Below, one piece after another: positions 7,845 to 41,897 of a DNA stretch of 64,000 bases. Each line of letters opens with the position of its first letter. Positions within the stretch are counted from its first letter, which is position 1. The notes beneath the pieces are model-generated. The model saw only the letters and a program-made list of their open reading frames with translations, was not told the DNA's origin and searched no databases. Origin of the DNA: Sphingomonas sp. Ag1 (GTDB lineage Bacteria; Pseudomonadota; Alphaproteobacteria; Sphingomonadales; Sphingomonadaceae); the NCBI RefSeq assembly GCF_000980895.1, contig NZ_LAZX01000094.1, positions 1,116,001 through 1,180,000 of the forward strand, written 5' to 3'. Both the position numbers and the translations under genes were made by a program.

Positions 7845-7955
7845 CTACCATCCCCTTCCCGCGCGGTACCGGGCACCCGCCGGTCATCCATCAGGCGCAC
7901 CGGCATCTTGCCTTTGCCGGCCATGACACAGCAGCAGTGGTCACACCAGACACTA

Positions 7956-8058
7956 TGTGCGCACAGCGGCTATGTGTTCGCCTGATGATATCTTTCTTGA
8001 CAGTTCGGATGCCCCCACACGATAGTACGCACAGAGAGCAGGATGTTCGCTGAGCGAC
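7956..8058. promoter_or_regulatory. Two operator-like elements in the DUF885 divergent promoter gap
   Basis: The 290-bp gap between two divergent DUF885 genes holds two related elements. The first has TGTGCGCACA (7956-7965, a perfect palindrome), 9 bp, then TGTTCGC (7975-7981). The second has TACGCACA (8026-8033), 10 bp, then TGTTCGC (8044-8050). The second continues as GTTCGCTGAGCGAC, close to the GTTCGYNNNNCGCA element elsewhere. Two sites in one gap suggest control of both genes. Confidence 0.45.
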
Positions 8059-8134
8059 CACGGTTGGATCGGCGCCCGGACCTGCCGACGTGCACACTGC
8101 GCGAAGCAACAAGATGCTAAAAGGAGTCGATGCC

Positions 8135-9823
8135 ATGTCCTTGAAACGCCGGCCAATGACGCTGGTGATCGCTGCCGCACTGGTGACGACCGCGGTGCCG
8201 GGCATTGCCGTTGCTCAGGGCGGAACGACGCTCGCCGCGGCATCCACCACCGCACGCCCGCCCTCGGGCCAAGGCAGCTACCAGGACCTGCTGCGGACCT
8301 GGGGTGAGTTCCTGGAATGGCGCACCGCGCAGGCCAAGAGCAGGGATTTCACCCCCGTCGCGACCAAGGCAAGGCGTGCGCAAGTGGGGGGCTACCTCAG
8401 CGCGATGGAGAATATGAACGTCGCCGGCTGGGAGCGGGCGCAGCAGGTCGACTGGCTCGCCGCGCGCGCCAAGATGAACGAGGAGGATTTCCTCCTGCGC
8501 GTCTCGAAGCCGTGGGAGCGTGATCCCGGTTTCTACGTCGACCAGATGCTGCGCGTGTCGTTCACCGAACTGCCCGCCAAGGGCGCCGCGCTGATCACGC
8601 TGCGCGGCCAGCTGCGGGAGATGCCGGCGATCGTAGCGCGCGCCAAGGCAACGCTGCGCAACGTGCCCGGCGACTATGCCGACCTGGCGCTGCACAACCT
8701 GACCAACGCCGATGGCGTCGGCCATGGCCATCCGTATCGCGAGGTGCCGCCCGCCGGCATCATCGGCTGGTTCGACGATCTGGAAGCGCGTGCGAAAACC
8801 ACGCAGCCGGCGATCCTCCCCGACATTCGCGCCGCGCGCGCCGCCGCGGCGGACCTTCGCACGTGGCTGGAAGCGGAGCGGCCGAAGATGACCGCGCCGG
8901 CCGGCGTCGGCGAGGCGAATTTCAACTGGTATGTAAAGAACGTGAAGCTGCTGCCGTACAATACGGACCAGCTGCGCACGATCGGCAACCGCGAGACCGA
9001 GCGACTGTGGGGCATGCATGCGCTGGAGAAGCATCGGAACCGCAACCTGCCCGAGCTGCCGCTGCCGGCGAGCGAGGCGGACTATGAAAAGCGCAAGGCC
9101 GACACGCTGCGCGACATCCACGCCTTCCTGAAGGACGAGGAGATCATCACCGTCCCGGCGGACATCGGCTATCTCTATGTCAACGTTCCGTGGATCGTGC
9201 GGCCGAACGGGCCGAATTTCTGGGAGCAGATCCAGTATCGCGATCCCAGCCCCGACCTGTTCCACGCCACCATCCCCGGCCACGCCTTTGACGGGCAGAT
9301 GGACAAGCGCGACACCCACCCGATCCGCAGCAAGATCGACGATGGCGTGCGGACCGAAGGCTGGGGCACGTATCTGGAGGAAGCGGCCCAGCGGCTCGGC
9401 TTCTTCGACAAGGATCGCGCGCGCACGCGTGAGCTGATCGACCTGTTCGGCATCTTCCGCGCGGTACGCGTCGCCGGCGACCTCGACCTGCAGCTCAACC
9501 GCGCCAATGTCTCGCAGGTCGTGGCCGAGTGGCAGAAATATACGCCTTGGCTCGATGCGGACGTGGCGCGTGTCGACGCCGAAATCTACCTGCGGCGGCC
9601 GCCCGGCTACGGCCTGGGCTATACGATCGGCATGGTCGAGATGCAGAAATTGCTGGGTGACGTTCGCCGGCACCAGGGCGACAAGTTCGTCCTCCGCGAT
9701 TTCCACGATCGCATGATGACGATCGGCCGCATACCCTTGTCGCTGATCCGATTCGAGATGACCGGCAACGACGACGAAGTGTCCACTTTCTGGCGACGCG
9801 ACCCTCTCCCCGGAGGGGCGTAG
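8135..9823 (+). CDS. Exported DUF885 family protein (paralogue 3, Glu missing from HExxPGH)
   Basis: A 562-residue protein. The frame is open from 8090, but AAAGGAG at 8119-8125 and the signal peptide MSLKRRPMTLVIAAALV to AVAQ favour ATG 8135. It shares KPWERDPGFYV, the NFNWYVKNVKL block, TEGWGTYLEE, RPPGYGLGYTIG and LSLIRFEMTGN with the other paralogues. At 9263-9283 the metal motif reads HATIPGH where intact DUF885 proteins have HEAxPGH, so both His are kept and the catalytic Glu is Ala. It is closest to paralogue 1, with which it shares KRDTxPIR after the motif. A perfect 12-bp stem terminator follows the stop. Confidence 0.85.
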   Translation: MSLKRRPMTLVIAAALVTTAVPGIAVAQGGTTLAAASTTARPPSGQGSYQDLLRTWGEFLEWRTAQAKSRDFTPVATKARRAQVGGYLSAMENMNVAGWERAQQVDWLAARAKMNEEDFLLRVSKPWERDPGFYVDQMLRVSFTELPAKGAALITLRGQLREMPAIVARAKATLRNVPGDYADLALHNLTNADGVGHGHPYREVPPAGIIGWFDDLEARAKTTQPAILPDIRAARAAAADLRTWLEAERPKMTAPAGVGEANFNWYVKNVKLLPYNTDQLRTIGNRETERLWGMHALEKHRNRNLPELPLPASEADYEKRKADTLRDIHAFLKDEEIITVPADIGYLYVNVPWIVRPNGPNFWEQIQYRDPSPDLFHATIPGHAFDGQMDKRDTHPIRSKIDDGVRTEGWGTYLEEAAQRLGFFDKDRARTRELIDLFGIFRAVRVAGDLDLQLNRANVSQVVAEWQKYTPWLDADVARVDAEIYLRRPPGYGLGYTIGMVEMQKLLGDVRRHQGDKFVLRDFHDRMMTIGRIPLSLIRFEMTGNDDEVSTFWRRDPLPGGA

Positions 9824-39432: not shown

Positions 39433-40767
39433 ATGGCAACGCGTCTTCCCTCACCGCCCCGCGTGGGCATGGTGTCGCTCGGCTGTCCCAAGAACCTGGT
39501 CGACAGCGAACGTATTCTCACCCAGCTGCGCGCAGACGGCTATCAGATGTCGCCCGACTATGCCGGCGCTGACGTCGTGCTCGTCAACACCTGCGGCTTT
39601 CTCGATTCGGCGAAGGAGGAGAGCCTGGAGGCGATCGGCGAAGCGATCGCGGAGAACGGCCGCGTCATCGTCACCGGTTGCATGGGCAAGGAAGCCGATG
39701 TCATCCGTGCCCGCTTCCCCAACGTCCTCGCGATCACCGGCGCGCATGAATATGAGCAGGTGGTGGAGGCGGTGCATGAGGCGGCGCCCGCGAACCTGTC
39801 GCCCTATATCGATCTCATCCCCGATGCCGGGCTGAAGCTGACCCCGCGTCACTACAGCTATCTTAAGATTTCGGAGGGCTGCAACCACCGCTGCTCCTTC
39901 TGCATCATCCCGTCATTGCGCGGCGACCTGGTCAGCCGGCGCCCCGACGCGATCCTGCGTGAGGCGGAGAAGCTGGTCGCGGCCGGCACGCGCGAGCTGC
40001 TGGTGATCAGCCAGGATACGTCGGCCTATGGCCTTGACCTGCGTCATGCCAGCTACCCGCTCAAGGGCGGGGGAGACGTGCGTGCGCACATGACCGATCT
40101 GGCGCGCGAACTGGGCCGCATCGCGCCCTGGGTCCGCCTGCACTATGTCTACCCCTACCCGCACGTGGATCAGGTCATCCCGCTGATGGCCGAGGGGCTG
40201 GTGCTCCCGTATCTCGACATTCCGTTCCAGCATGCCGCGCCCAACGTGCTGCGTGCGATGAAGCGCCCGGCGAACGATGCCAAGGTGCTCGCCCGGCTGC
40301 GCGGCTGGCGCGAGATCTGCCCCGATATCGCGATCCGCTCGACCTTCGTCGTCGGCTTCCCGGGCGAGACCGAGGCGGACTTCGAATATCTTCTCGAATG
40401 GCTCGACGAGGCGCAGCTCGACCGCGTCGGCGCCTTCCGCTTCGAACCCGTCGAGGGCGCCAGCGCCAACGCGCTGCCCAACCCGGTGCCAGAGGAGGTG
40501 AAGGAAGAACGCTACGCCCGCATCATGGCCAAGACGGCGGCGATCAGCGCGGCCAAGCTCCAGGCCAAGATCGGTCGCAGCTTCGACGTCATCATTGACG
40601 CCGTGGGCGATGAGGGCGCCACCGGCCGCTCCTATGCCGACGCGCCGGAAATCGACGGCGAAGTCCACCTGCGCGACGCCGGCCACCTCAACGAAGGCGA
40701 CATCGTCCGCGTCACGATCGAGGACGCCGACGAACACGACCTGTTCGGCGTACCCGTCACCAACTGA
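39433..40767 (+). CDS. rimO: Ribosomal protein S12 methylthiotransferase RimO
   Basis: A 444-residue radical-SAM enzyme. [27 protein letters not shown] and GCMGKEAD supply the three cysteines of the auxiliary cluster, [18 protein letters not shown] carries the CxxxCxxC radical-SAM site, and the C-terminal TRAM domain ([15 protein letters not shown]) ends the protein. It adds a methylthio group to an aspartate of S12. ATG 39433 gives the usual start. A GC hairpin at 40774-40805 follows the stop. Confidence 0.96.
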
Positions 40768-41067
40768 CAATCAGCCGGGCGGCCGCAGCAATGCGCCGCC
40801 CCGGCTCCCTCATGTTCGACGGCAAGCAACGCACGCGCACCGCTCTGCGCGGTGCCAACCTTCCTGTGTCCCCGCTCGAATGTTTTTGAACCTGATGGCG
40901 GAGCCGTGTGGCGAGCGGCTCGAACTTCCACTGTACGCTTACTTCTTAGGCGAGGGTGGCGGCGGGGGTGGCGGCGGCGGCGGCGGCGGTGCGGGCCGTG
41001 CCCAATCATTCTTCTTACGCGATTGATCGTCTGGTGGTCGTGCCATGACACAACGTATGAAGATGTC
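40768..41067. other. 300-bp gap with GC hairpin and glycine-type repeat
   Basis: The gap after rimO holds a bulged GC stem (GCCGGGCGGC 40774-40783 with GCCGCCCCGGC 40795-40805) that may terminate rimO, and the GGC/GGT repeat at 40954-40994. Base composition falls from about 41000 onward. I see no convincing gene before 41068. Confidence 0.5.
40954..40994. repeat. GGC/GGT simple-sequence tract
   Basis: About 40 bases of GGY triplets (with single variants) in a non-coding gap. It would read polyglycine on the plus strand and polyproline on the minus strand. Such a tract is prone to slippage. Confidence 0.8.
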
Positions 41068-41610
41068 ATGGATCAGTTCAAGAGCCTCGACGGGCTTAGA
41101 GAGTTCGACGACGACATCCTTAAGGAGGTTGTCAGGGAGGGCGAGCTGATGATGGCCGCACAGCTCAGCGTAGCCACAGCCTCGGATCAACGTGCACTCA
41201 CTTGGGCCGGCTTTGTTCTTACGATCGCAATTGCGTCGATTGGCGGAAGCGCAAGTCTTGCGATCGACGGAAAACAACTACCGCTTGCAGCAATTTCCGG
41301 GGCGGGCGCCATTCTCATGGCCATCTCAGGATACTACGCCGTGCGGGCGGTTCGTCCACGCAAATACGGCATGCCTGGTAACCTTCCCCAGAACTGGCTA
41401 CCCGAGCATTGGGAAAGCGGAAGAACACGAGACTTTAGGCAGGCACGAATAGAGCAGGCGCGCACTATAAACGGTCAAATCGTCAAGAACGCAGCTTTGG
41501 CCGAACGCAACGCCACCGATCTTAACCATTCAATTCATACCGCTGGGTGCGCGGTACTACTCGCTGGAGTTTATGTGATAGCCTATTTGACATATACTAT
41601 CTTGAGATAA
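41068..41610 (+). CDS. Hypothetical three-helix membrane protein in a low-GC patch
   Basis: A 180-residue protein that I do not recognise. After a soluble start (MDQFKSLDGLREFDDDILKEVV) it has hydrophobic segments at about residues 52-72 (LTWAGFVLTIAIASIGG), 76-98 (AAISGAGAILMAISGYY) and 158-178 (AVLLAGVYVIAYLTYTIL), with a charged loop between the second and third. Codon use is clearly more A/T-rich than in the neighbours. The layout loosely resembles small membrane proteins of accessory and defence loci (SLATT-like), but the match is not strong. Its stop is one base from the stop of the opposing fragment at 41612. Confidence 0.6.
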   Translation: MDQFKSLDGLREFDDDILKEVVREGELMMAAQLSVATASDQRALTWAGFVLTIAIASIGGSASLAIDGKQLPLAAISGAGAILMAISGYYAVRAVRPRKYGMPGNLPQNWLPEHWESGRTRDFRQARIEQARTINGQIVKNAALAERNATDLNHSIHTAGCAVLLAGVYVIAYLTYTILR

Positions 41611-41611
41611 T

Positions 41612-41818
41612 TCATATGAACGAATTATCATCAGATCGTTCCCACCTAAACTGATAGTAGGCTTGCATTCCGTCTGCAATTGAGCCCGCGCCATAGAGCT
41701 TAGTGAGATCCCAGTCTCGACTGGGGAAGTATTCGCAGCCACGCCTTGAACTTGTCTCGAATGAAGCTAGGCAATCCACTAGCGAGCGAAGCAGATCACC
41801 AACCTCATATACGTCGCG
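41612..41818 (-). pseudogene. Start-less ORF remnant abutting tRNA-Met
   Basis: Reading minus from the tRNA 3' end, one frame stays open to TGA at 41612-41614 and gives protein-like sequence, for example YEVGDLLRSLVDCLASFET, then ECYF-type residues, RDWDLTKLYGAGSIADGMQ and AYYQFRWERSDD. There is no ATG upstream in frame; the only candidate is GTG at 41779, which would give about 55 residues. Base use is A/T-rich like the adjacent membrane protein. It looks like the C-terminal end of a gene cut off at the tRNA, though a short real gene cannot be excluded. Confidence 0.45.
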
Positions 41819-41820
41819 AG

Positions 41821-41897
41821 TGGTAGCGGAGGAGGGACTTGAACCCCCGACCCCAGGATTATGATTCCCGTGCTCTAACCAGCTGAGCTACTCCGCC
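41821..41897 (-). tRNA. tRNA-Met (CAT anticodon)
   Basis: A 77-nt cloverleaf on the minus strand. GGCGGAG pairs with CTCCGCT (one G-T pair), CCA is encoded, and the anticodon stem CGGGA/TCCTG holds loop ATCATAA with anticodon CAT. An elongator Met tRNA is most likely; a lysidine-modified Ile tRNA cannot be fully excluded from sequence. Confidence 0.9.

Follow-up and report, generated by a model that had tools for sequence, protein, structure and literature searches.

The locus described here lies in a stretch of 64,000 nucleotides, hereafter the window, from the 3.93-Mb genome of Sphingomonas sp. Ag1. Between rimO and a tRNA-Met gene it carries two divergent open reading frames. The larger, at 41068-41610 on the plus strand, encodes a membrane protein of 180 amino acids with three hydrophobic helices and long cytoplasmic helices, and it belongs to a family of 19 loci. 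Its start at 41068 was set by alignment with homologues; the open frame extends upstream to 40852. The smaller, at 40939-41046 on the minus strand, specifies 35 amino acids that begin MARPPDDQSR, contain a run of 12 prolines and end in SPKK. Its position is conserved between loci and its changes show a synonymous bias. A G-rich tract on the plus strand (40949-40999) corresponds to the polyproline codons of this small ORF.

The two start codons are separated by a gap of 21 nt (41047-41067), a candidate bidirectional leaderless promoter proposed from hexamer statistics at ten loci. Within it, a −10-like hexamer TATGAA occupies 41056-41061 on the plus strand and a second one, TACGTT, occupies 41057-41052 on the minus strand, one base off the −7 register. 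Beyond the membrane-protein gene, a low-GC 3′ flank (41611-41820) holds an open frame on the minus strand (41612-41821), which we do not count as a gene. The tRNA-Met (CAT) at 41821-41897, also on the minus strand, is an intact neighbour outside the module.

The membrane-protein family and its divergent partner

The membrane protein has three helices, as had been claimed: its hydrophobic 19-residue peaks start at residues 48, 71 and 161, and an AlphaFold2 model (pLDDT 88.9, pTM 0.77) places helices at residues 15-67, 71-93 and 123-179. A fold search gave no match in the PDB or BFVD at E ≤ 0.001, and a profile of the first seven members found no match among PDB sequences. In the 19-member alignment E26, R42, G104 and N141 are invariant, while E20, R23, Q32, A38, D40, Q41, P97 and W110 are nearly so.

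Family members were recovered by whole-genome searches and by alignments. A single-sequence search with the membrane protein against GTDB contigs, plasmids, phages and IMG/VR yielded no confirmed homologue. Similarly, tblastn with the L058 and L044 members against phages and with the L042 member against plasmids gave no match. Within the genus, 13 of 295 genomes matched at E ≤ 1e-3. The own genome and six others were kept; six weak partial hits with an internal stop were dropped (G001, G026, G328, G329, G351 and G352; E 2e-4 to 1e-3), and G172, from another whole-genome search, was also left out. The alignment scan returned six IMG/VR contigs and eight genome contigs, five of the latter repeating genomes already found. 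With a larger alignment, at least two of 396 genomes of the order match, and at least five of 385 in the class. Both figures count the own genome and are lower bounds, since only eight to nine candidates per genome were scored. One partial member with a missing start was discarded (L077), another was retained despite an uncertain gene start (L071), and L063, L066-L070 and L078-L085 repeat other loci. Among the 19, L043, L060 and L062 are close kin (85-99% DNA identity over the membrane gene). The members closest to the window protein, 43-46% identical, come from G055, Novosphingobium endophyticum and Sphingobium xenophagum; these three, the window and G376 form one group (support 99/98).

The divergent small ORF does not figure in the earlier note on this DNA. 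The G-rich tract has matching counterparts at the corresponding position upstream of other members, and its opposite strand is the small ORF running away from the membrane gene. An ATG-started divergent ORF of 28-75 amino acids, with its start between −30 and +2, accompanies the membrane gene at 17 of the 19 loci. Among 174 control genes taken from these loci, 31 have such an ORF, one of those 31 being a family member (L058). The two strict misses are L050, where a GTG start would give an ORF, and L057, where the start overlaps and the contig ends. By a composition rule set after the family had been seen (disordered-type composition with K or R in the last four residues), 16 of 19 loci qualify against 10 of 174 controls, L058 included. 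Across loci the divergent ORFs have 35-60 codons and mostly basic products, and they start 9-27 nt from the membrane-gene start or overlap it. The partner ends in 12-16 consecutive prolines in the window, L042, L045 and L050. Comparison of the loci shows that this predicted pair, its divergent order and its very tight start spacing recur across Alphaproteobacteria and their phages.

Substitutions in the small ORF are mainly synonymous. In all 12 pairs compared pS exceeds pN, in alignments made on protein, which favours low pN. Examples of pS/pN are 0.53/0.07 for L043-L062, 0.84/0.32 for L044-L059 (taking the shorter start of L044) and 0.68/0.26 for the window and L042 (proline run included). 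The small ORF evolves more rapidly than the membrane gene, above all in its tail. Translation of the small ORF is strongly suggested. It is quite improbable that the ORF is untranslated and that the conserved upstream stretch serves the membrane gene as an RNA or regulatory element. Such an element could account for an ORF that is short, of low complexity and variable in its tail; divergent ORFs are not uncommon in DNA of such high GC content, as the control count attests, and the protein-first alignment lowers pN. However, the start MAK.PEKQTR is kept in L042, L064 and L065 while third positions change, the L044 partner matches a phrog_5079 protein, and no Rfam family is found there at gathering score. 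Ten of the small ORFs gave nothing meaningful against Pfam and NCBIfam, and the small protein of the window has no family match, the phrog_5079 profile included. A search of the mostly open-access literature found nothing on the pair, on the small protein or on its motif beside defence genes.

The gap between the start codons

The arrangement of the starts varies. In five loci (L043, L058, L060, L062 and L074) the start codons overlap in CATG; Shine-Dalgarno-like words are present for both genes in four of them and for the small ORF only in L074. In most other loci the gap measures 17-27 nt and such words are often missing. Ten of 17 loci entered a test for −10-like hexamers, the five CATG loci, L075 (gap of 9 nt) and L071 being excluded; the 17-nt gap of L044 uses the longer of its two starts. 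At −7, a register chosen after looking, the mean hexamer score is −0.33, whereas the means for the 15 other positions lie between −3.57 and −6.45. The best-of-five mean is 1.79; shuffled gaps average −0.64 (sd 0.64), and none of 5000 shuffles reached the observed value. Exactly at −7, a score of 1.5 or more occurs on 9 of 20 sides and in 0.9% of random hexamers from the window. Plus sides are stronger than minus sides (means 0.58 vs −1.24).

For members with gaps of 17-27 nt these hexamers strongly suggest, and we infer, that both mRNAs would be leaderless and that one RNA-polymerase site would be used in either direction. Two observations weigh against this part of our reading: the signal is absent in L059 and L045, and a general sigma-70 scan returned nothing in the gap of the window, its one site lying at the 3′ end of the gene (mean 0.6 expected). 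If the RNAs begin at the ATG, the two start sites would be 18 bp apart in L061, and also in L044 provided that the longer of its possible starts is used, 23 bp in L042 and L064, and 22 bp in the window and L076. Among the bidirectional promoters published by Warman, Grainger and colleagues a distance of 18 bp is preferred, and 10 and 23 bp are also common (PMC12825309). The same source describes competition between opposing polymerases when one direction is strongly activated. With a single polymerase site for both directions, the two genes of the module could thus compete for transcription. Our literature search found no account of leaderless starts in Sphingomonas.

Chromosomal and phage settings

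The earlier note had reported a sharp change in base composition near 41000 and read the interval as an element that entered at the tRNA and decayed. The composition shift is real: no other 820-bp stretch of the window is as poor in GC as 41001-41820, at 0.524 (mean 0.672, sd 0.030). In the window rimO and tRNA-Met are about 1.05 kb apart. Of 120 genomes, 119 have a rimO-type match, which in some reaches no more than paralogue level, and the rimO loci of 29 relatives were read for comparison of the interval. In six of them a 100%-identical tRNA-Met follows rimO in the orientation of the window, at distances of 173 bp (G001), 771 bp (G021), 710 bp (G035), 507 bp (G013), 564 bp (G036) and 506 bp (G014). 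None of the six has the membrane gene at this place, and the interval DNA of the window is unmatched in all of them. Even the closest relative, G001, with a rimO 97% identical to that of the window, has only 8 nt beside the tRNA in common with it (41813-41820). The comparison of relatives that the note had proposed therefore establishes, on present genomes, that the interval is variable and that its content in the window is lineage-specific.

Other arrangements were also encountered. In eight relatives (L014, L018-L020, L030-L032 and L041) a tRNA-Met 93.5% identical lies in the opposite orientation right after rimO; the contrast set with the 100%-identical tRNA-Met in the orientation of the window comprises L013, L015, L021, L026, L034 and L038. 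In 15 of the 29 neither arrangement occurs within the stretch read beyond rimO. The 771-bp interval of G021 (L015) holds other sequence with other small open frames. The cargo that the rimO-tRNA-Met interval receives thus seems to differ from one lineage to another.

The note had described the minus-strand frame as start-less, convergent with the membrane gene within one base and open into the tRNA. The convergence stands, the stop codons being one base apart (41608-41610 and 41612-41614), and the frame is open through 41821 into the tRNA as far as a TAG at 41888. It is not strictly start-less, with possible starts at a GTG (41777, giving a 55-aa ORF) and an ATG (41666). Markov shuffling of these 210 bp yields an open stretch of that length in 1043 of 5000 cases. 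Profile searches gave it no family match, and it is matched in none of 72,556 plasmid or 50,697 phage records. Against 120 genomes its matches are very weak; the best outside itself has E 0.06 over 27 residues of the own genome, and the same place scores E 6e-4 against a small local database. With its chance length and no convincing homologue, we do not regard the frame as meaningful and reject it as a gene remnant. The lack of a homologue is an outcome that the note itself had taken to contradict its view.

Signs of entry at the tRNA are equally lacking. The best matches of the tRNA 3′ end in 40765-41820 stay within shuffle range at all five lengths tried (7-8 nt at best in local alignment), and among the ORFs listed from rimO to the tRNA none was recognised as integrase-like. 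Nor is decay apparent: the membrane gene is full length and keeps the invariant residues of its family, and the divergent partner is open. Although low GC, lineage-specific content and a place directly beside the tRNA would suit an integrative element that had come in at the 3′ end of tRNA-Met and then decayed, the lack of a tRNA repeat above shuffle level and of a recognised integrase-like ORF in the interval, the intact genes, the chance-level frame and the mere 8 nt shared with G001 largely contradict this reading, which is very improbable. The module is foreign to this genome, yet intact.

The gene family is carried by phages. Eight relatives occur in phage-like contexts (L043, L056/L050, L057, L058, L059, L060, L061 and L062). 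Matches to solved structures back the terminase neighbour of L058, the major capsid neighbour of L059 and the portal neighbours of L043, L060, L061 and L062; the tail-gene context of L056 and L057 was judged by eye. One neighbour protein each of L056 and L057 and the terminase-like protein of L043 have no PDB match. In these eight the membrane gene is an extra gene among late genes, with which it is always co-oriented, while its position varies: it may adjoin the terminase, lie in the terminase-portal interval, follow the capsid gene or stand among tail genes. The window gene is instead flanked by rimO and a tRNA. In two related phages, L043 and L060, a second small conserved protein (MAKDKGPPSYRDAGTGHFVTP...) lies just beyond the divergent partner, at 7879-8187 (+) in L043 and, in L060, on the opposite strand some 230-360 nt upstream of 7962.

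The five-member group of the window was classed as non-phage: no copy lies in a contig recognised as a phage structural region, G376 being read only to 1.5 kb around the gene. The Sphingobium xenophagum copy lies between an sspB-like gene and fumC (assigned by eye), and the Novosphingobium copy between proteins with RelA_SpoT and Mrr_cat domains. The G055 copy is near transposase-like and phage-like genes, again judged by eye.

Possible function and known systems

The earlier suggestion of a defence-type membrane gene is plausible. PADLOC has PycTM models that match the window protein (2.6e-5) and, through a different model, the L075 member (1e-5). Among the members scanned, 4 of 17 (two of seven and two of ten) match PycTM models at E ≤ 0.1. 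The Pfam PycTM score of the window protein, 14.8 bits, is below the cut-off of 27.2. Pycsar is defined as a cyclase with a TM or TIR receptor (PMC11224242). The own genome has no PF00211 cyclase, and control rings were found in 5 of 14 genomes. The module is therefore not Pycsar as defined.

A second link to defence comes from the partners of relatives. The L044 partner matches phrog_5079 (1.7e-14), and the L059 partner is 57% identical to it. A search with the latter returned eight plasmid and nine phage records, the phage ones weak (E 0.01-0.06); a Staphylococcus phage protein among the matches fits phrog_5079 at 1.6e-17. An alignment of this small-protein family matches 12 of 216 genomes of the order. 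We read 23 neighbourhoods, from ten of the 17 record hits and 13 genome stretches. At seven of these loci, picked for neighbours that looked like defence genes, ten neighbour proteins were run against PADLOC, and all ten matched, covering each of the seven. They comprise a CBASS phospholipase and cyclase (L095), an HmaA-type helicase with WYL (L117), RmrT (L112), RmrA (L088), the retron RT_VI (L089), LmuA and LmuC of Lamassu (L087) and a PDC-S66/ThsB TIR-like protein (L090). At five of the seven loci the phrog_5079-type gene is divergent from the defence genes, L089 and L090 being the exceptions. In L091, L093, L119, L120 and L122 the small-protein motif occurs as two tandem copies in one open frame.

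We propose that the membrane gene and its small partner form a defence or exclusion effector module inserted between rimO and tRNA-Met, a reading to which we give a probability of about one half. The three-helix protein with its long cytoplasmic helices would be the effector, serving phage defence or superinfection exclusion by damaging or gating the membrane. Its small partner, presumably disordered in its 35-residue Pro/Lys-rich form, would restrain or trigger this effector. This proposal draws on the 17 divergent ORFs in 19 loci, the excess of pS over pN, the −7 hexamers, the eight phage contexts, the PycTM matches, the phrog_5079 neighbours at seven loci and the Novosphingobium copy between RelA_SpoT and Mrr_cat proteins. 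Against it weigh the small share of PycTM matches, the Pfam score below cut-off, the empty fold search, a window partner that matches no family and the fact that no defence gene adjoins the window module. The earlier observation is thus partly confirmed and its interpretation partly supported.

A more specific scheme is doubtful, and we offer it as speculation. Long proline runs need fully working, EF-P-assisted translation for their synthesis. In members with such a partner, an infection that upsets translation or tips the promoter could starve the partner and free the effector. The module would then be a minimal immunity unit in which a membrane-damaging effector is kept off by a micro-protein from the same leaderless promoter fired in the opposite direction, and, more widely, small basic proteins of the phrog_5079 kind might be general companions, so far unrecognised, by which many defence operons are tuned.

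Two other functions have to be weighed. A plain toxin-antitoxin or addiction pair, with a membrane toxin and a small antitoxin maintained selfishly and without a role against phage, is rather unlikely. It would agree with a compact two-gene unit, a mobile distribution, a conserved pairing and a small partner whose sequence, especially in its tail, is less constrained over time than that of the membrane gene. Type II toxin-antitoxin pairs, however, usually form an operon, not a tight divergent order on a shared promoter. It is unlikely, too, that the protein is a phage lysis or late accessory, holin-like or acting in late timing, left behind in chromosomes. Three helices, the late-gene orientation of all eight phage-context copies, several just upstream of the terminase, and a weak match of one member to an endolysin-labelled PHROG (0.02) speak for such a role. 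Yet the phage positions vary, the group of the window has no copy in a recognised phage structural region, and the long conserved cytoplasmic helices of the AlphaFold2 model are unlike a small holin.

What looked like a scrap beside a tRNA becomes a compact, testable unit that occurs in bacteria as well as in their phages. Its expression design is unusual, in that a single promoter would serve two genes that both appear to be leaderless. The phrog_5079-type family, here known only by its PHROG number, adjoins several kinds of phage-defence gene. Should this adjacency hold in a systematic survey, it would raise the general question of how defence systems stay quiet or get set off.

The module resembles known systems in part. 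Like the Pycsar effector PycTM and other 2TM effectors of nucleotide-signalling defence, it includes a small helical membrane protein with sub-threshold to moderate profile matches, some to 2TM Effector; unlike them, it has no cyclase but a divergent small protein, and most members are unmatched. Like prophage morons and superinfection-exclusion proteins, its relatives sit as an extra membrane gene, apparently with its own promoter, among late genes. However, no homology to a named exclusion protein was found, and the gene also stands alone in chromosomes, as in the window. The phrog_5079 proteins are of the same type as the L044 and L059 partners, which are likewise divergent from the membrane gene, whereas the Pro-rich window partner matches no profile and is linked to them by position only; where such proteins adjoin other defence genes, the intervening gap is wider, at some 70-250 nt. 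Finally, the bidirectional promoters described in PMC12825309 would share with the module divergent starts around shared or overlapping −10 elements at similar distances; compared with the promoters presented there, the RNAs of the module would differ in being leaderless at both ends.
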